DNA of 32,474 nt, from the IMG/VR virus record IMGVR_UViG_3300047320_000066, positions 1-32,474 of that record; one strand, written 5' to 3'. Below, in pieces: positions 3,195 through 18,221 of this stretch. A program made the position numbers and the translations under genes. Each line of letters starts with the position of its first letter. Positions within the stretch are counted from its first letter, which is position 1. This DNA comes from a virus. The notes beneath the pieces are model-generated. The model saw only the letters and a list, made by a program, of their open reading frames with translations. It ran no database searches and had not been told where the DNA came from.

Positions 3195-3691
3195 TGGCCG
3201 GCCTGCCCGCAGAGATCAAGGCGCTCGCTGAGCTCTCTCCCGTCGAAGACCTCATGCTCGCCGTCCTACGGGACGGCCTGCCTGGCATCGAGGTCAAGTC
3301 CCTGATCGCCAAGAACCAGGGGTTCCCCCTCGTCCTGGTCCGCCGCGACCCGTCCTTCGGGAACTGGGGCGGCGACACCCGATTCCTCGACGCTGCACGC
3401 GTCGCGATCCACACCTTCAGCCAGGACCCCAACGGCGACGAGGACGCAGCGATCCTCTCCGAGGCCGTACGCGTCGTCATCCGGGACGCCTGGCTGACAC
3501 AGAAGGTCGTCCCCGGCCGCGGTCACATCACGCGCGCCGACCTCTCTTCCGCTCCTCGACGGGTCACCGACTGGGCTACGGCCACCGGGCCCGTCCAGTA
3601 CGCGGACCTTCCGACTGGTGTCTGGCGCTACGAGGCGACCTACGACATCGAGATCCGCAAGCCGCGGACCCGCCCCTTCCCCCTTCAGTAA
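3194..3691 (+). CDS. Tail terminator protein
   Basis: A 165-residue protein translationally coupled to the gene before it (ATGA at 3194) and immediately before the major tail protein. It shows the alternating helix-strand pattern of lambda gpU-like terminators: an N-terminal helix, then IEVKSLIAKNQGFPLVLVRR, an acidic helical segment, and a final strand (YEATYDIEIRKP). Terminators cap the tail tube and join it to the neck. The role is inferred from position and the strand pattern. Confidence 0.6.
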   Translation: MAGLPAEIKALAELSPVEDLMLAVLRDGLPGIEVKSLIAKNQGFPLVLVRRDPSFGNWGGDTRFLDAARVAIHTFSQDPNGDEDAAILSEAVRVVIRDAWLTQKVVPGRGHITRADLSSAPRRVTDWATATGPVQYADLPTGVWRYEATYDIEIRKPRTRPFPLQ

Positions 3692-3703
3692 GGAGACTGC
3701 TTC

Positions 3704-4444
3704 GTGGCACTGAACGACAACGCCACTCTCGTCATCGGAAGCGGTAACTACCTGACCGCTCCGGTAGGTACCGACATCCCGGCCGACCTGCTCGTCCCGA
3801 CCTCCCCGTGGTCGAACGTCGGTCACACCAGCCTGGAGGACATCTTCTCGATCTCCTCCGAGGGTGGCGAGGCGACCGTCATCGGGTCGCTTCAGAACAA
3901 GAGCCTGCGCACCAAGTACTCGGCGCGTACCGAGACCATGGCCTTCACCCTTCAGCAGTTCGACGTGGACGGCCTGAAGCTCTACTACGGCTCGAACGCG
4001 CCGATCCTGACGGACGGTTCGGTCGGTGTCCCCTCGGACCCGACCCCGACCCAGGCCGCCTTCCTCGCGGTGTTCGTGGACGGCGAGAACGTCTTCGCGT
4101 TCTACGCGCCCAAGGCCGAGATCTACCGGGCCGACGACGTGTCCTTCGGTGACACCGAGTCCCTGGCCGGCCTGCCGCTCGGCGTCAAGCCGATGGCCTA
4201 CGGCGCCAACTCCTGGACCTACGCGATCACGCCGCTCGGCAGCGCTGTTGCCACGGGCGCGACCGCCGGTTCCCCCGGCTCGTTCACCCCGTCCGGCACC
4301 ACGGCCCCCGCCAACCTGGCGGCCCTGGCCGACGTCATCGCCACGCCGACCAGCGCGTGGACCACGGGTCAGCACGTCGTTCTCGGCGACGCCTCGAAGG
4401 CGTACTGGAACGGCACTGCGTGGGTTGCCGGCCAGGCTTCCTGA
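3704..4444 (+). CDS. Major tail tube protein
   Basis: A 246-residue protein starting at GTG 3704 after AAGGAG (3690-3695). Residues 1-180 have the beta-rich composition of siphovirus tube proteins (for example TKYSARTETMAFTLQQFDVD). A Gly/Ser/Thr/Pro linker (about 185-205) leads to a short extra C-terminal module ending in YWNGTAWVAG. Small C-terminal add-on domains that decorate the tube are common, and a similar WNGTAW string occurs in the S74 fibre of this phage (residues ~185-190), so the two may share a module. Its position between terminator and chaperones fits. Confidence 0.8.
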   Translation: MALNDNATLVIGSGNYLTAPVGTDIPADLLVPTSPWSNVGHTSLEDIFSISSEGGEATVIGSLQNKSLRTKYSARTETMAFTLQQFDVDGLKLYYGSNAPILTDGSVGVPSDPTPTQAAFLAVFVDGENVFAFYAPKAEIYRADDVSFGDTESLAGLPLGVKPMAYGANSWTYAITPLGSAVATGATAGSPGSFTPSGTTAPANLAALADVIATPTSAWTTGQHVVLGDASKAYWNGTAWVAGQAS

Positions 4445-4449
4445 CCCAG

Positions 4450-4463
4450 TGTGTAAGTTTCGC
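4450..4463 (+). promoter_or_regulatory. Stoperator-like motif 3 (after major tail gene)
   Basis: TGTGTAAGTTTCGC, beginning six bases after the major tail protein stop and upstream of the hairpins in the same gap. It is in the direction of transcription. Confidence 0.7.
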
Positions 4464-4488
4464 TCCCGCGGAACTCACCTTCTCCCCT

Positions 4489-4554
4489 GGCGTGCGAGTG
4501 GTGCGGACCTCCTCGCACGCCGGGGGCCCTTCGGGGCTCCCCTTCGAGGTCCGC
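4489..4554 (+). terminator. Strong nested RNA hairpins between tail tube and chaperone genes
   Basis: Three pairings are visible. GGCGTGCGAG (4489-4498) pairs perfectly with CTCGCACGCC (4512-4521), leaving a 13-base loop. A GC hairpin with a TTCG loop follows at about 4522-4541. GCGGACCTC (4503-4511), inside the first loop, is also complementary to GAGGTCCGC (4546-4554). There is no T run, so this may be an attenuator or processing site that lowers expression of the genes downstream of the very abundant tube protein, rather than a full terminator. Confidence 0.55.
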
Positions 4555-4594
4555 TTCCTGATCAACCATCACACTCTTGGAGGTCCGCAACCCC

Positions 4595-4936
4595 ATGGCC
4601 GTTTTCTCTCTCGACAACATCCGTGCCGCCGCCGAGGCCAAGTACGGCTCGACCGACATCGAGCTGGCTGACGGCTTCGTCGTCCGCCTGCTGAACCCGC
4701 TGCGCCTGTCGAAGGCCGCCCGCGCCGAGCTGCTGTCCATCCAGTCCAAGCTCGAAGGCGACGACGTCGACCAGGAGGCGGTGCTGTCCGAGGCCATCGC
4801 CCTGGTCGCCGAGAACGAGACCGCGGGCAAGCGGCTCCTCGACGAGGTGGGTAGCGACCTCGCCGTCCTGGCCCAGATCTTCGACGCCTACGGCAGCGGG
4901 ACCCAGGTGGGGGAAGCCTCGGCCTCGCAGAGCTGA
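4595..4936 (+). CDS. Tail assembly chaperone, short form (G-type)
   Basis: A 113-residue protein starting at ATG 4595, with GGAGG at 4579-4583 as ribosome site (spacing 11 bases, rather long). It corresponds to lambda gpG. It lies between the major tail and tape measure genes, is helical, and its 3' end carries a slippery run that allows a minority of ribosomes to make a longer G-T form. These chaperones bind the tape measure protein and tube subunits during tail assembly and are not in the virion. The N-terminus (VFSLDNIRAAAEAKYGSTDIEL) is typical of actinophage versions. Confidence 0.8.
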   Translation: MAVFSLDNIRAAAEAKYGSTDIELADGFVVRLLNPLRLSKAARAELLSIQSKLEGDDVDQEAVLSEAIALVAENETAGKRLLDEVGSDLAVLAQIFDAYGSGTQVGEASASQS

Positions 4937-5322
4937 TCGACTCGTACGGCGAGGGCATCTACCCCGACCTACTCTTTCACTTCGGTGTCGACCTGACCGA
5001 GGTGATCGCAGGCCGGGGGCCCTCGCCGGCACTGGTCAACCTGCTCGTGCAGAGGCTTCCCGACACCTCGCTCACCGTCGCCCTCGCGTCCGGCGGCCGT
5101 GAGCACTTCGGCTGGGGCATCGACCGCCACATGACCGCCGACATCTTCGACGCGCTCAACCAGAACACTCGCGCCACCGGCCAGTGGGGCAAGGGCAAGG
5201 CGCCCAAGTTCCAGCCGTGGCCACGTCCCAAGGCTCCCAAGAAGAAGGAGAGCCAGAAGGACAAGCCCGCTCGCCGCATCTCGGTGGCGGACATCTACAA
5301 GAAGTTCACCACCCGGAGGTAG
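4595..5322 (+). CDS. Tail assembly chaperone, frameshifted long form (G-T fusion)
   Basis: A -1 frameshift at the five-G run 4909-4913 (zero frame GTG GGG GAA) lets the ribosome leave the short form before its TGA at 4934-4936 and continue in a frame open to TAG 5320-5322. The predicted fusion is about 242 residues. The shifted frame reads LAELIDSYGEGIYPDLLFHF just after the slip, which matches the usual start of the T part. It ends in a Lys/Pro-rich tail (PRPKAPKKKESQKDK) before the tape measure gene. No good start codon with a ribosome site exists for the second frame alone. The exact slip base is inferred. Confidence 0.75.
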
Positions 5323-5326
5323 GCGT

Positions 5327-8300
5327 ATGCCCCAGGGCCAGGTAATCGGGCGCGTCAGCGTCCGCGTCCTGCCGAACACCGACGACTTCAAGAGGACTGC
5401 GCAGAACCAGCTCGACCGGATCGAGTCCAAGCTCGAAGTCAAGGTCCAGGTCATGCCGAACATGGCCGGGTTCGAGCGGCAGATGCTCGAAGAGATCAAC
5501 AAGATCAACCAGCGCAACCGGAACTCGGACGCGCGGAAGATCAAGCTCTACACCCGCATCGACACGAGCACCATGACCGGCGAGCTGGCCAAGGCGATCC
5601 GGAAGTACAACGACAAGGCGAAGTCTGGCTCCAAGGTCGAGCTCCAGACGGAGCTCGATGCCGGCGACGTCAAGCTGAAGATCAGCGACGAGTCGTTGCG
5701 CGACATGAGTAAGCAGCTCGACGACTGGCGGGACCGCAACAGCCCGCAGAAGATCAAGATCGAGCCGGACGTTGCAGCCTCCTCCAGCCTGGCGACCTCC
5801 GCCCGACTCGGGGTCCTGACCCGTCCGCGCACCGTCTCGATCATCCCGAAGCTGAACGAGGCCGCGCTCGCCAAGGTGGGCACGGCCCTGGCCATGCTGT
5901 CCGGCGCCCGCGTGCTGAAGAAGCTGTTCGGTGAGATCGGCGAGACCCTGATGAACCTGGACCGCAGCGTCCCGGTCATCGGCTCCCTGGCTGCGGCCAT
6001 CGCTGGCGTCGCCGGCTTCGCCCTGTCGGCCGCGAGCAACCTCTTCTCCCTGTCGGCGTCGCTGGCGCAGATCGGACCAACGGTCGCGCTCCTGCCCGGA
6101 CTCATGGGCGGCTTCGCGGTCGGCATCGGCGTCACGATCGCCGCGCTGAAGGACTTCAACAAGGTCATCCCCGAGGTCAAGCAGACCCTCTCCGGTCTCC
6201 AGGACACGATCAGCAAGAACTTCTGGGCCAAGGCCGAAGAGCCGATCCGGCACATGGTCGACGCACTACTCCCCGCCTTCCGTAAGGGAGTCGCGGACAC
6301 GGCTACCGAACTCGGCGGCTTCTTCGGGTCGTTCGCCAAGAACCTCGGTACCTCCCTCTCGCCGGCCATGGGCCAGATGTTCGACGACCTCTCGAAGTCG
6401 ATCAACATCGCGACCACCGGCACGGGTGCGTTCGCCGACATCATCGCGACCCTCGGCAAGGTCGGCACGTCCTACCTGCCGCAGCTCTCGCAGTGGTTCG
6501 TCAACCTGTCGAAGCAGTTCGCCGACTTCCTCAAGGCCAAGGGCGAGAACGGGATCAAGGCCGAGATCGACCAGGGCATCCAGGCCCTGAAGGATCTGGG
6601 CGGCGTCCTCTACAACGTCTACGGCATCTTGTCCGGTGTCGCGAAGGCGGCGACCGACGCGGGCGGTACGTCCCTCGGCTCCCTGAACGACGCGCTCGCG
6701 AGCATCCACAAGACGGTCGACTCTCCCGGCTTCCAGGCTGGCCTGGTCGACGTGTTCAACGCGGCGCACGTCGCCATGAACAACATCGCCGGCCGCTCCG
6801 GTCCGGCGGTCAAGAACCTGTTCACCGAGATCGGCAAGCTCGCGACGACGGTCCTGCCCCAGGCGGGCGAGATCATCGGCACGGCGTTCGGCGCCATCGC
6901 TGACGCGCTCGCGCAGCCGGCCGTGACGCAGGGCGTGAAGGATCTGTTCACCGGCCTCGACGGCGCGGTCCAGGCCCTCGCTCCCGCGCTGGCCCCGGTT
7001 GGCCAGGCGCTCGGCGCCATCCTCTCGGTGGTCGGCGCGGCGCTGCCGGTGTTCGCCCAGCTCGTCTCGGCAGCGATCATCCCGCTCGCGGGTGCGTTCT
7101 CGACGCTCGCCCCGCAGCTCACGCCGATCATCCAGCTCCTCGGCGGCGCGCTGACGCAGGCGTTCGAGACGCTGGCCCCGGTCATCGAGCAGATGGTCCC
7201 GGTCGTCGGGCAGATGCTCGGCGCCGCGTTCAGCTTCCTGTCGACGATCCTGCCTCCGATCGCTGCGATCTTCCAGCAGATCCTCCAGGCGGCCATGCCG
7301 CTGGCCTCCGCGTTCATGGATGCGCTGGCCCCGATCCTGCCGGTCCTCGCCGACGCGCTCGGTCAGGTCATGTCGGCGCTTCAGCCGCTGATCGAGACGG
7401 CACTGAAGATCATCTCAGCCGTCATCACGCCGCTCCTCCCCATGCTGAGCGAGGTCATCCAGTCGGTTCTCCCGCCCCTGGCGGACGCGGTCACACGCGT
7501 GGTCGAGGCGCTTCAGCCCTTCATCGAAGCGCTGCTCTCGGTCGTGAACTTCCTGATGCCGATCCTCGTACCGGTCATCCAGTTCATCGTCGAGCTACTG
7601 GCCGGCGCCCTGGTCGCCGCCATCAACGGCGTGGGCCTGGTCCTCGAAGGACTCAAGGAGTACTTCGTCGGAATCTGGGAGTACGTCTCCGGATGGTTCC
7701 AACTCTTCCTCGACCTCTTCACCGGCAACTGGGACCAGCTCGGCGCAGATCTCAAGCAGATCTGGGACGGCATCGTCGACATGCTGCACGGCGTCTGGGA
7801 CATCATCCTCGGCGCGCTGGAGTTCTTCTTCAACGTCGGCATCCTCGGCACCGCAGGCAAGGCCCTCAAGGGTCTGGGTGCGCTGTTCAAGGCTGGCTGG
7901 AAGGCCATCACCGATCTGTTCACGGGAGCCTTCGCGGCGATCCGTGGGTACATCGGCCTGTTCTTCACGGGGGCCAAGGGCCTGGCGCTGGACGGAATGA
8001 AGGCCATCGGGAAGTTCTTCTCGGACGGCTGGAAGTCCATCACCGGCTACGTCCGGGTGTTCTTCACGGGCGCCAAGCAGATCGTCCTCGACGGCCTGTC
8101 GTCCATGAAGCAGTTCTTCGTGGACGGCTGGAACTCGATCCGCACGACCGCGGTTTCCAAGTTCACCTCACTGGTGTCGACGGTCTCCGAGTGGATCGGC
8201 AAGGCAGTCGCCAAGGTGAAGGAGCTGCCCGGCAAGGCGAAGGCCGCGCTGAGCTCGCTCGGGTCGACGCTGAAGAACGCCGGTATTGAGCTCATCAAGG

Positions 8301-18207: not shown

Positions 18208-18221
18208 GCGCAACTTACACA
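18208..18221 (-). promoter_or_regulatory. Stoperator-like motif 7, inverted, at the early promoter start site
   Basis: GCGCAACTTACACA, the reverse complement of TGTGTAAGTTGCGC. It is the only clear copy pointing against transcription. It lies at about +5 to +18 from the predicted start, where a bound repressor would block initiation, so it is the best candidate for the true operator of the system. Confidence 0.75.

Follow-up and report, generated by a model that had tools for sequence, protein, structure and literature searches.

In the translational operator of E. coli infC-rpmI-rplT, a long-range pseudoknot forms with the rpmI ribosome site and is bound by L20. A pseudoknot in the repZ leader of ColIb-P9 (IncI-alpha) activates translation and is controlled by an antisense RNA, and the preQ1-II and SAM-II riboswitches also have a pseudoknot at the Shine-Dalgarno sequence. 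Long-tailed phages need very many tube subunits and few chaperones from neighbouring genes, and attention has so far been on the programmed -1 frameshift within the gene for the tail assembly chaperone (TAC). Here we describe a three-part element between the tube and TAC genes, a candidate new RNA family with an unusual design in which one loop has two targets.

The window, which is the whole 32,474-base stretch of DNA that we analysed, is an IMG/VR record of an R4-like Streptomyces siphophage; its nearest named relatives, Sentinel, phiScoe1 and Omar, are ~83% identical over the tail genes. On the plus strand, the gene for the major tail (tube) protein (3704-4444; PHROG 117 major tail protein, E=1.9e-63) is followed by the first frame of the TAC gene (4595-4936, with its ATG at 4595; PHROG 330, E=2.4e-28) and by the second TAC frame, which runs to 5322 (PHROG 5813, E=7.4e-28); the tape measure gene lies from 5327. 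Near the end of the first TAC frame there is a canonical -1 slip site, G GGG GAA (GGGGGAA, 4909-4915), that leads into the second frame.

The element lies on the same strand. Because its hairpin P1 starts ~40 nt past the stop codon of the tube gene, that upstream gene should be unaffected. The core stem of P1 (4489-4498/4512-4521, GGCGTGCGAG / CTCGCACGCC) is lengthened by an outer extension (4484-4488/4522-4526) to a hairpin that spans 4484-4526 (stem 4484-4498/4512-4526), and its loop (4499-4511, TGGTGCGGACCTC) contains a segment, X (4503-4511, GCGGACCTC), with the core GCGGACC at 4503-4509. A second hairpin, P2 (4522-4541, GGGGGCCC-TTCG-GGGCTCCC), has 4522-4526 in common with the outer P1 extension; it is missing from many prophage versions and from locus L007. 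Downstream are two complements of X: c1 (4546-4554, GAGGTCCGC), the proposed decoy, and c2 (4579-4589, GGAGGTCCGCA), which includes the TAC Shine-Dalgarno sequence GGAGG (4579-4583). A coordinate check places GAGGTCCGC at both 4546-4554 and 4580-4588 and GGAGGTCCGC at 4579-4588, and the loop-c2 helix reaches 11 bp with T4502-A4589 included. The hairpin, the complementarity of its loop, the second copy and the overlap with GGAGG had been pointed out in an earlier note on this DNA, and we verified every coordinate in the sequence. A hairpin loop complementary to a ribosome site in cis, as found here, is one mark of the pseudoknots that control translation through a loop and a ribosome site. Across the loci compared, the usual distance from X to the 3′ strand of P1 is 0-2 nt, a few nucleotides precede X, and c1 tends to lie ~6-28 nt past P1, whether P2 is present or not; this spacing fits a predicted H-type pseudoknot.

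Examination of these parts shows both likenesses to and differences from the described systems. As in infC-rpmI-rplT, the loop of an upstream hairpin would pair in cis with a ribosome site further down, but the sequence is unrelated and there is a second, competing copy of the ribosome-site sequence, whereas the E. coli operator has a ribosomal protein target and a known protein trigger. As in ColIb-P9 repZ, a hairpin loop would pair with a short sequence near the Shine-Dalgarno; there the pseudoknot activates, whereas here it is proposed to close the ribosome site. The preQ1-II and SAM-II riboswitches share the pseudoknot geometry over the ribosome site, but here no ligand-like core is conserved apart from the helices, the genes are phage tail genes and no Rfam family matches: the window, L007, L033 and L035 gave none at the gathering threshold, and further searches gave sub-threshold, chance-level hits alone. 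No description of this element was found in the open-access literature, the part searched. We read the resemblance to loop-ribosome-site operators (rpmI-rplT, repZ) as a probable likeness in working, with an added decoy, that does not imply kinship. The programmed -1 frameshift concerns the same gene pair and, like the control proposed here, acts at the RNA level on chaperone products, but the element sits upstream of the slip site at 4909-4915. A frameshift pseudoknot would lie a few nucleotides downstream of its slip site; here the slip site is ~320 nt downstream of c2, and thus the three-part element is not a frameshift stimulator.

How much of this could arise by chance? We kept P1 and dinucleotide-shuffled the 71 nt downstream: a single 9-mer match appeared in 0.24% of the shuffled sequences, and none of 5000 contained any loop 7-mer in two copies. 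Over 32 kb, chance is expected to produce a hairpin of at least 9 bp with one downstream 8-mer complement ~2 times per strand, and one with two downstream 8-mer copies 0.03 times. A lone complementarity in 32 kb is unremarkable; the double one, together with its conservation, is remarkable. The window by itself is suggestive rather than decisive, and it is the comparison with relatives that decides. An explanation by repeats was considered and set aside, since the window shows no enrichment of GAGGTCCGC with at most one mismatch (34 sites against 27.5 expected).

The P1 loop, c1 and c2 are present upstream of TAC in 28 of the 28 named R4-like Streptomyces phages compared, in which GCGGACC in the P1 loop is followed by GGTCCGC soon after P1 or P2 and by GGTCCGC at the ribosome site; Celia and VieEnRose have one mismatch in c1. 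An IMG/VR scan for the three parts together gave 100 matching stretches. Almost all precede TAC genes, and some are prophages with unrelated stems; two (L082, L099) resemble chance matches in GC-rich sequence. TAC-guided searches revealed more prophages in Streptomyces, Actinacidiphila, Cellulomonas, Saccharothrix, Lentzea, Kribbella and other actinobacteria, and the element is also found in mycobacteriophage relatives of HelDan and Naca; this distribution is that within the phage and prophage groups searched. A TAC search of genome contigs with the window protein alone gave no match, whereas an alignment-based search did find prophages, and single-protein IMG/VR searches from Naca and L007 gave few additional relatives. 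The c2 segment is always at or adjoining the start codon region; in L253 and L273 it is ~30 nt ahead of the start, on the 5′ side of the Shine-Dalgarno. In two phage groups a tRNA-Phe or tRNA-Lys gene is inserted between c1 and c2 (L220, 1374-1446; L264 and L265, 1378-1452). Extra c1-like copies also occur: GAGTCCGC is present twice before c2 in L286, and at least two CCCGCC stand between P1 and c2 in 29 of 58 sites among mycobacteriophage loci L321-L440. The P1 loop of many R4-like phages reads ACCTCC(TT) (window 4503-4512; L016 and L023 are examples), with GCGGACCCGC instead in the Camvirus type; ACCTCC(TT) has the letters of the anti-Shine-Dalgarno end of 16S rRNA.

The loop is not the same in all lineages. 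We found the variants GCGGATC, GCGGACTC, GCAGACC, GGTCCC, GGGTCTC, GTAGGTC and GCGGGCC, with c1 and c2 altered in step. Specifically, GCGGATC goes with GATCCGC twice (L253, L273), GCGGACTC with AGTCCGC or GAGTCCGC (L264, L271, L286), GCAGACC with GGTCTGC twice (L306), TGTAGGTC with GACCTACA twice (L007), CGGGTCTC with GAGACCCG and GGAGACCC (L307), and GGTCCC with GGGACC twice (L287, L295); L220 has the c2 of L264, L271 and L286 and a c1 that pairs over only 6 bp. The mycobacteriophages combine the loop GGCGGGCC with GGCCCGCC or GCCCGCC as c1 and GGTCCGCT, GGTTCGCC or GGTCTGCC as c2. Covariation extends to the flanks, where TAGCGGACC occurs with GGTCCGCTA (L252, L254) and GTGGCGGACC with GGTCCGCCAC (L283). 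Loop variants fall at several separate positions on a TAC tree that leaves many forks unresolved and has several long branches; counted by sequence class, and hence approximately, there appear to have been at least six separate loop changes.

Pair counts agree with this pattern. X and c2 (taken as the closest match near the start) form seven of seven standard pairs in 123 of 123 distinct element-bearing sequences, X-c1 is perfect in 107 of 117, and the non-Watson-Crick pairs at c2 in the sequences counted are G-U (L218, L305 and the mycobacteriophages). In 43 representative sequences, with alignment rows hand-built from the loci and the L307 row two columns off, which makes that row count partly against the structure, 98.7% of P1 is paired and both-side changes occur at nine of nine scored pairs, and X-c2 and X-c1 are 95.3% and 89.2% paired with both-side changes at six of eight pairs each. 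Sliding single helices as a control left ~20-45% paired, and the real pair counts are also far above shuffled ones. Because c1 and c2 were found partly via complementarity, we used two further controls, which offset this only partly. When the loops of ten lineages were swapped against each other's regions, 0 of 100,000 permutations matched the true assignment, either in the 20 nt preceding the start codon or, tested on its own, between P1 and that stretch. When the mycobacteriophage loop and GAAAGGT were fixed and the following bases left free, all 58 distinct matches before a TAC-like open reading frame continued with CCGCT, TCGCC or CTGCC, each able to pair with the loop; none of the 12 commonest continuations among 58 non-TAC matches was one of these. 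Pairing of the loop with either the ribosome site or the second copy, as the earlier note had envisaged, is thus conserved with compensatory changes in several lineages, pairing kept by compensatory change being a further mark of loop-ribosome-site pseudoknots, and we consider the X-c1 and X-c2 pairings well supported by the comparison.

The two pairings are not predicted to be equal in strength. Nearest-neighbour energies for the helices only, with the pseudoknot penalty excluded, have medians of -12.9 kcal/mol for X-c1 and -18.3 kcal/mol for X-c2, and X-c2 is the stronger in 112 of 150. The automatic c1/c2 assignment in this set is imperfect where both segments are near the start: some mycobacteriophages and L307/L295 had c1 chosen as c2, and these were read by eye. 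In HelDan- and Naca-type phages X-c1 is a perfect helix and X-c2 has G-U pairs, and the predicted c1/c2 balance in these phages is different from that in the others.

Several lineages have no recognisable element (L217/L279, L229, L231, L237/L281, L262/L299, L277, L297, L303, L304). Their ribosome sites, for example GGAGGTTGCTG, GGAGGCCCACG, GGAGGTCCTCC, GGAGGTCACAA and GGAGGTCCCAC, keep the Shine-Dalgarno and lack GGTCCGC. L293 is an exception, in which the hairpin is gone and GGAGGTCCGC is retained, perhaps by a recent loss of the hairpin; L291 has several parts in decayed form, and L298 and L300 are partial. The earlier note had counted relatives with a ribosome site and no complementarity against its proposal. 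About nine lineages are of this kind, yet their hairpin is gone too, and the c2 tail is lost in all but L293, as the model predicts. The c2 tail thus tends to disappear with the hairpin, which suggests that pairing with the loop, rather than use by the ribosome, is what preserves the bases 3′ of the Shine-Dalgarno.

These observations suggest how the element might work. The comparison shows that X, 7-11 nt at the 3′ side of the P1 loop, is complementary to both c1 and c2, the two pairings being mutually exclusive. In a closed state, the X-c2 pseudoknot would conceal the TAC ribosome site and reduce chaperone translation; in a competing open state, decoy pairing of X with c1 would leave the ribosome site free, and the balance between the two would keep the chaperone well under the tube protein. 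This balance could be tipped by the order of folding, by a bound protein or simply by competition with ribosomes; with less confidence, we would favour folding order, in which c1 is made first, or a bound protein. We think that the element is probably a cis-acting translational control element that holds TAC output below that of the tube protein, and it is plausible that loop pairing sets the tube:chaperone ratio. We offer more tentatively, as somewhat short of an even chance, the idea of a phage-specific three-part switch in siphophages of Streptomyces, Mycobacterium and other actinobacteria, in which the loop chooses between decoy and ribosome site and would time or ration the chaperone relative to the tube protein by co-transcriptional strand exchange or tail-protein binding. 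Counting against control of this kind, several phages manage without the element, c2 stands apart from the Shine-Dalgarno in L253 and L273, the balance in HelDan- and Naca-type phages differs, and processing of a tRNA gene between c1 and c2 could part P1 from c2.

A different role for the same parts is that a P1-c1 pseudoknot forms the 3′-end structure of the tube mRNA, ending transcription or blocking exonucleases, which would leave much tube mRNA and little mRNA from downstream, with the c2 pairing secondary. P1 is long and GC-rich and is followed by TTTCTT in L007, c1 makes the better helix in HelDan-type phages, and processing of the tRNA genes found between c1 and c2 in some phages would leave P1 and c1 on the tube mRNA. 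RNA-seq of mycobacteriophage Kampy, cited for expression alone, is also in line with it, as the highest late expression spans genes 14-22 and gene 22 is the major tail subunit (PMC4626039). However, a scan of 3600-5400 for a GC-rich hairpin followed by a T run found no intrinsic terminator, and the c2 pairing is kept as strictly as that of c1 or more so, and at the ribosome site, which a 3′-end structure does not need; we judge this role unlikely. A sigma-70 scan of the same interval found nothing.

Less likely still, X, c1 and c2 could be one inverted and two direct copies of a site at which a protein of phage or host binds DNA or RNA, with complementarity a by-product and the copies shifting with the protein's preference. 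The near-invariant GCGGACC core in R4-like phages and the layout of inverted and direct repeats would suit such a protein, but X is always next to the 3′ arm of a hairpin that stays paired while its stem sequence varies freely, deviations from Watson-Crick pairing at c2 in the sequences counted are G-U, which base pairing tolerates, and spacing varies, up to the insertion of a tRNA gene, while c2 is tied to the ribosome site. A narrower version, with GCGGACC itself as the protein site, is weakened by the lineages with variant loops. It is quite improbable that the loop acts in trans, with X exposed on abundant tube mRNAs that end at P1 or beyond it and repressing the ribosome site on chaperone mRNAs, more tube mRNA giving less chaperone: the same pairings would serve, and where a tRNA gene lies between c1 and c2 the X-c2 complementarity is kept though processing could separate the parts, but the parts adjoin in cis, usually within ~100 nt, and free P1 fragments are not indicated here. 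Fortuitous complementarity to an ordinary hairpin, although single 8-mer complementarities do occur randomly in 32 kb, is contradicted by the swap control and by the way the parts are kept through compensatory changes in several lineages, and is extremely improbable.

If control by the element is real, the amount of chaperone is under a conserved, separate control at the ribosome site, and this in the model phages R4, Joe, phiHau3, HelDan and Naca. The element also suggests that the chaperone start annotations of HelDan and Naca are wrong. The annotated TAC starts are upstream of the element (L137 (Naca), 611; L310 (HelDan), 778), and the ATG after c2 (701 and 892, respectively) is more likely to be the real start. 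Directly upstream of P1 in HelDan (L310, ~778-800) is CTTGACATCGCACACGCGATGTC, which resembles the cluster A stoperator.

Another motif, GTGTGTAAGTT, is repeated in the window, mostly on one strand and in or near intergenic gaps. It is found at 758, 4449, 19764, 19838, 21197, 22560 and 22613 on the plus strand and at 18215 on the minus strand, with GTGCAAGT variants at 1907, 15501, 17362 and 17395; exact GTGTAARTT sites number 8 against 0.02 expected. A repressor or stoperator-type site is one possibility. Of 119 gap sequences from R4-like phages, GTGTGTAAGTT lies before P1 in 10, within the 5′ strand of P1 in 59, in both places in 2 and in neither in 48.
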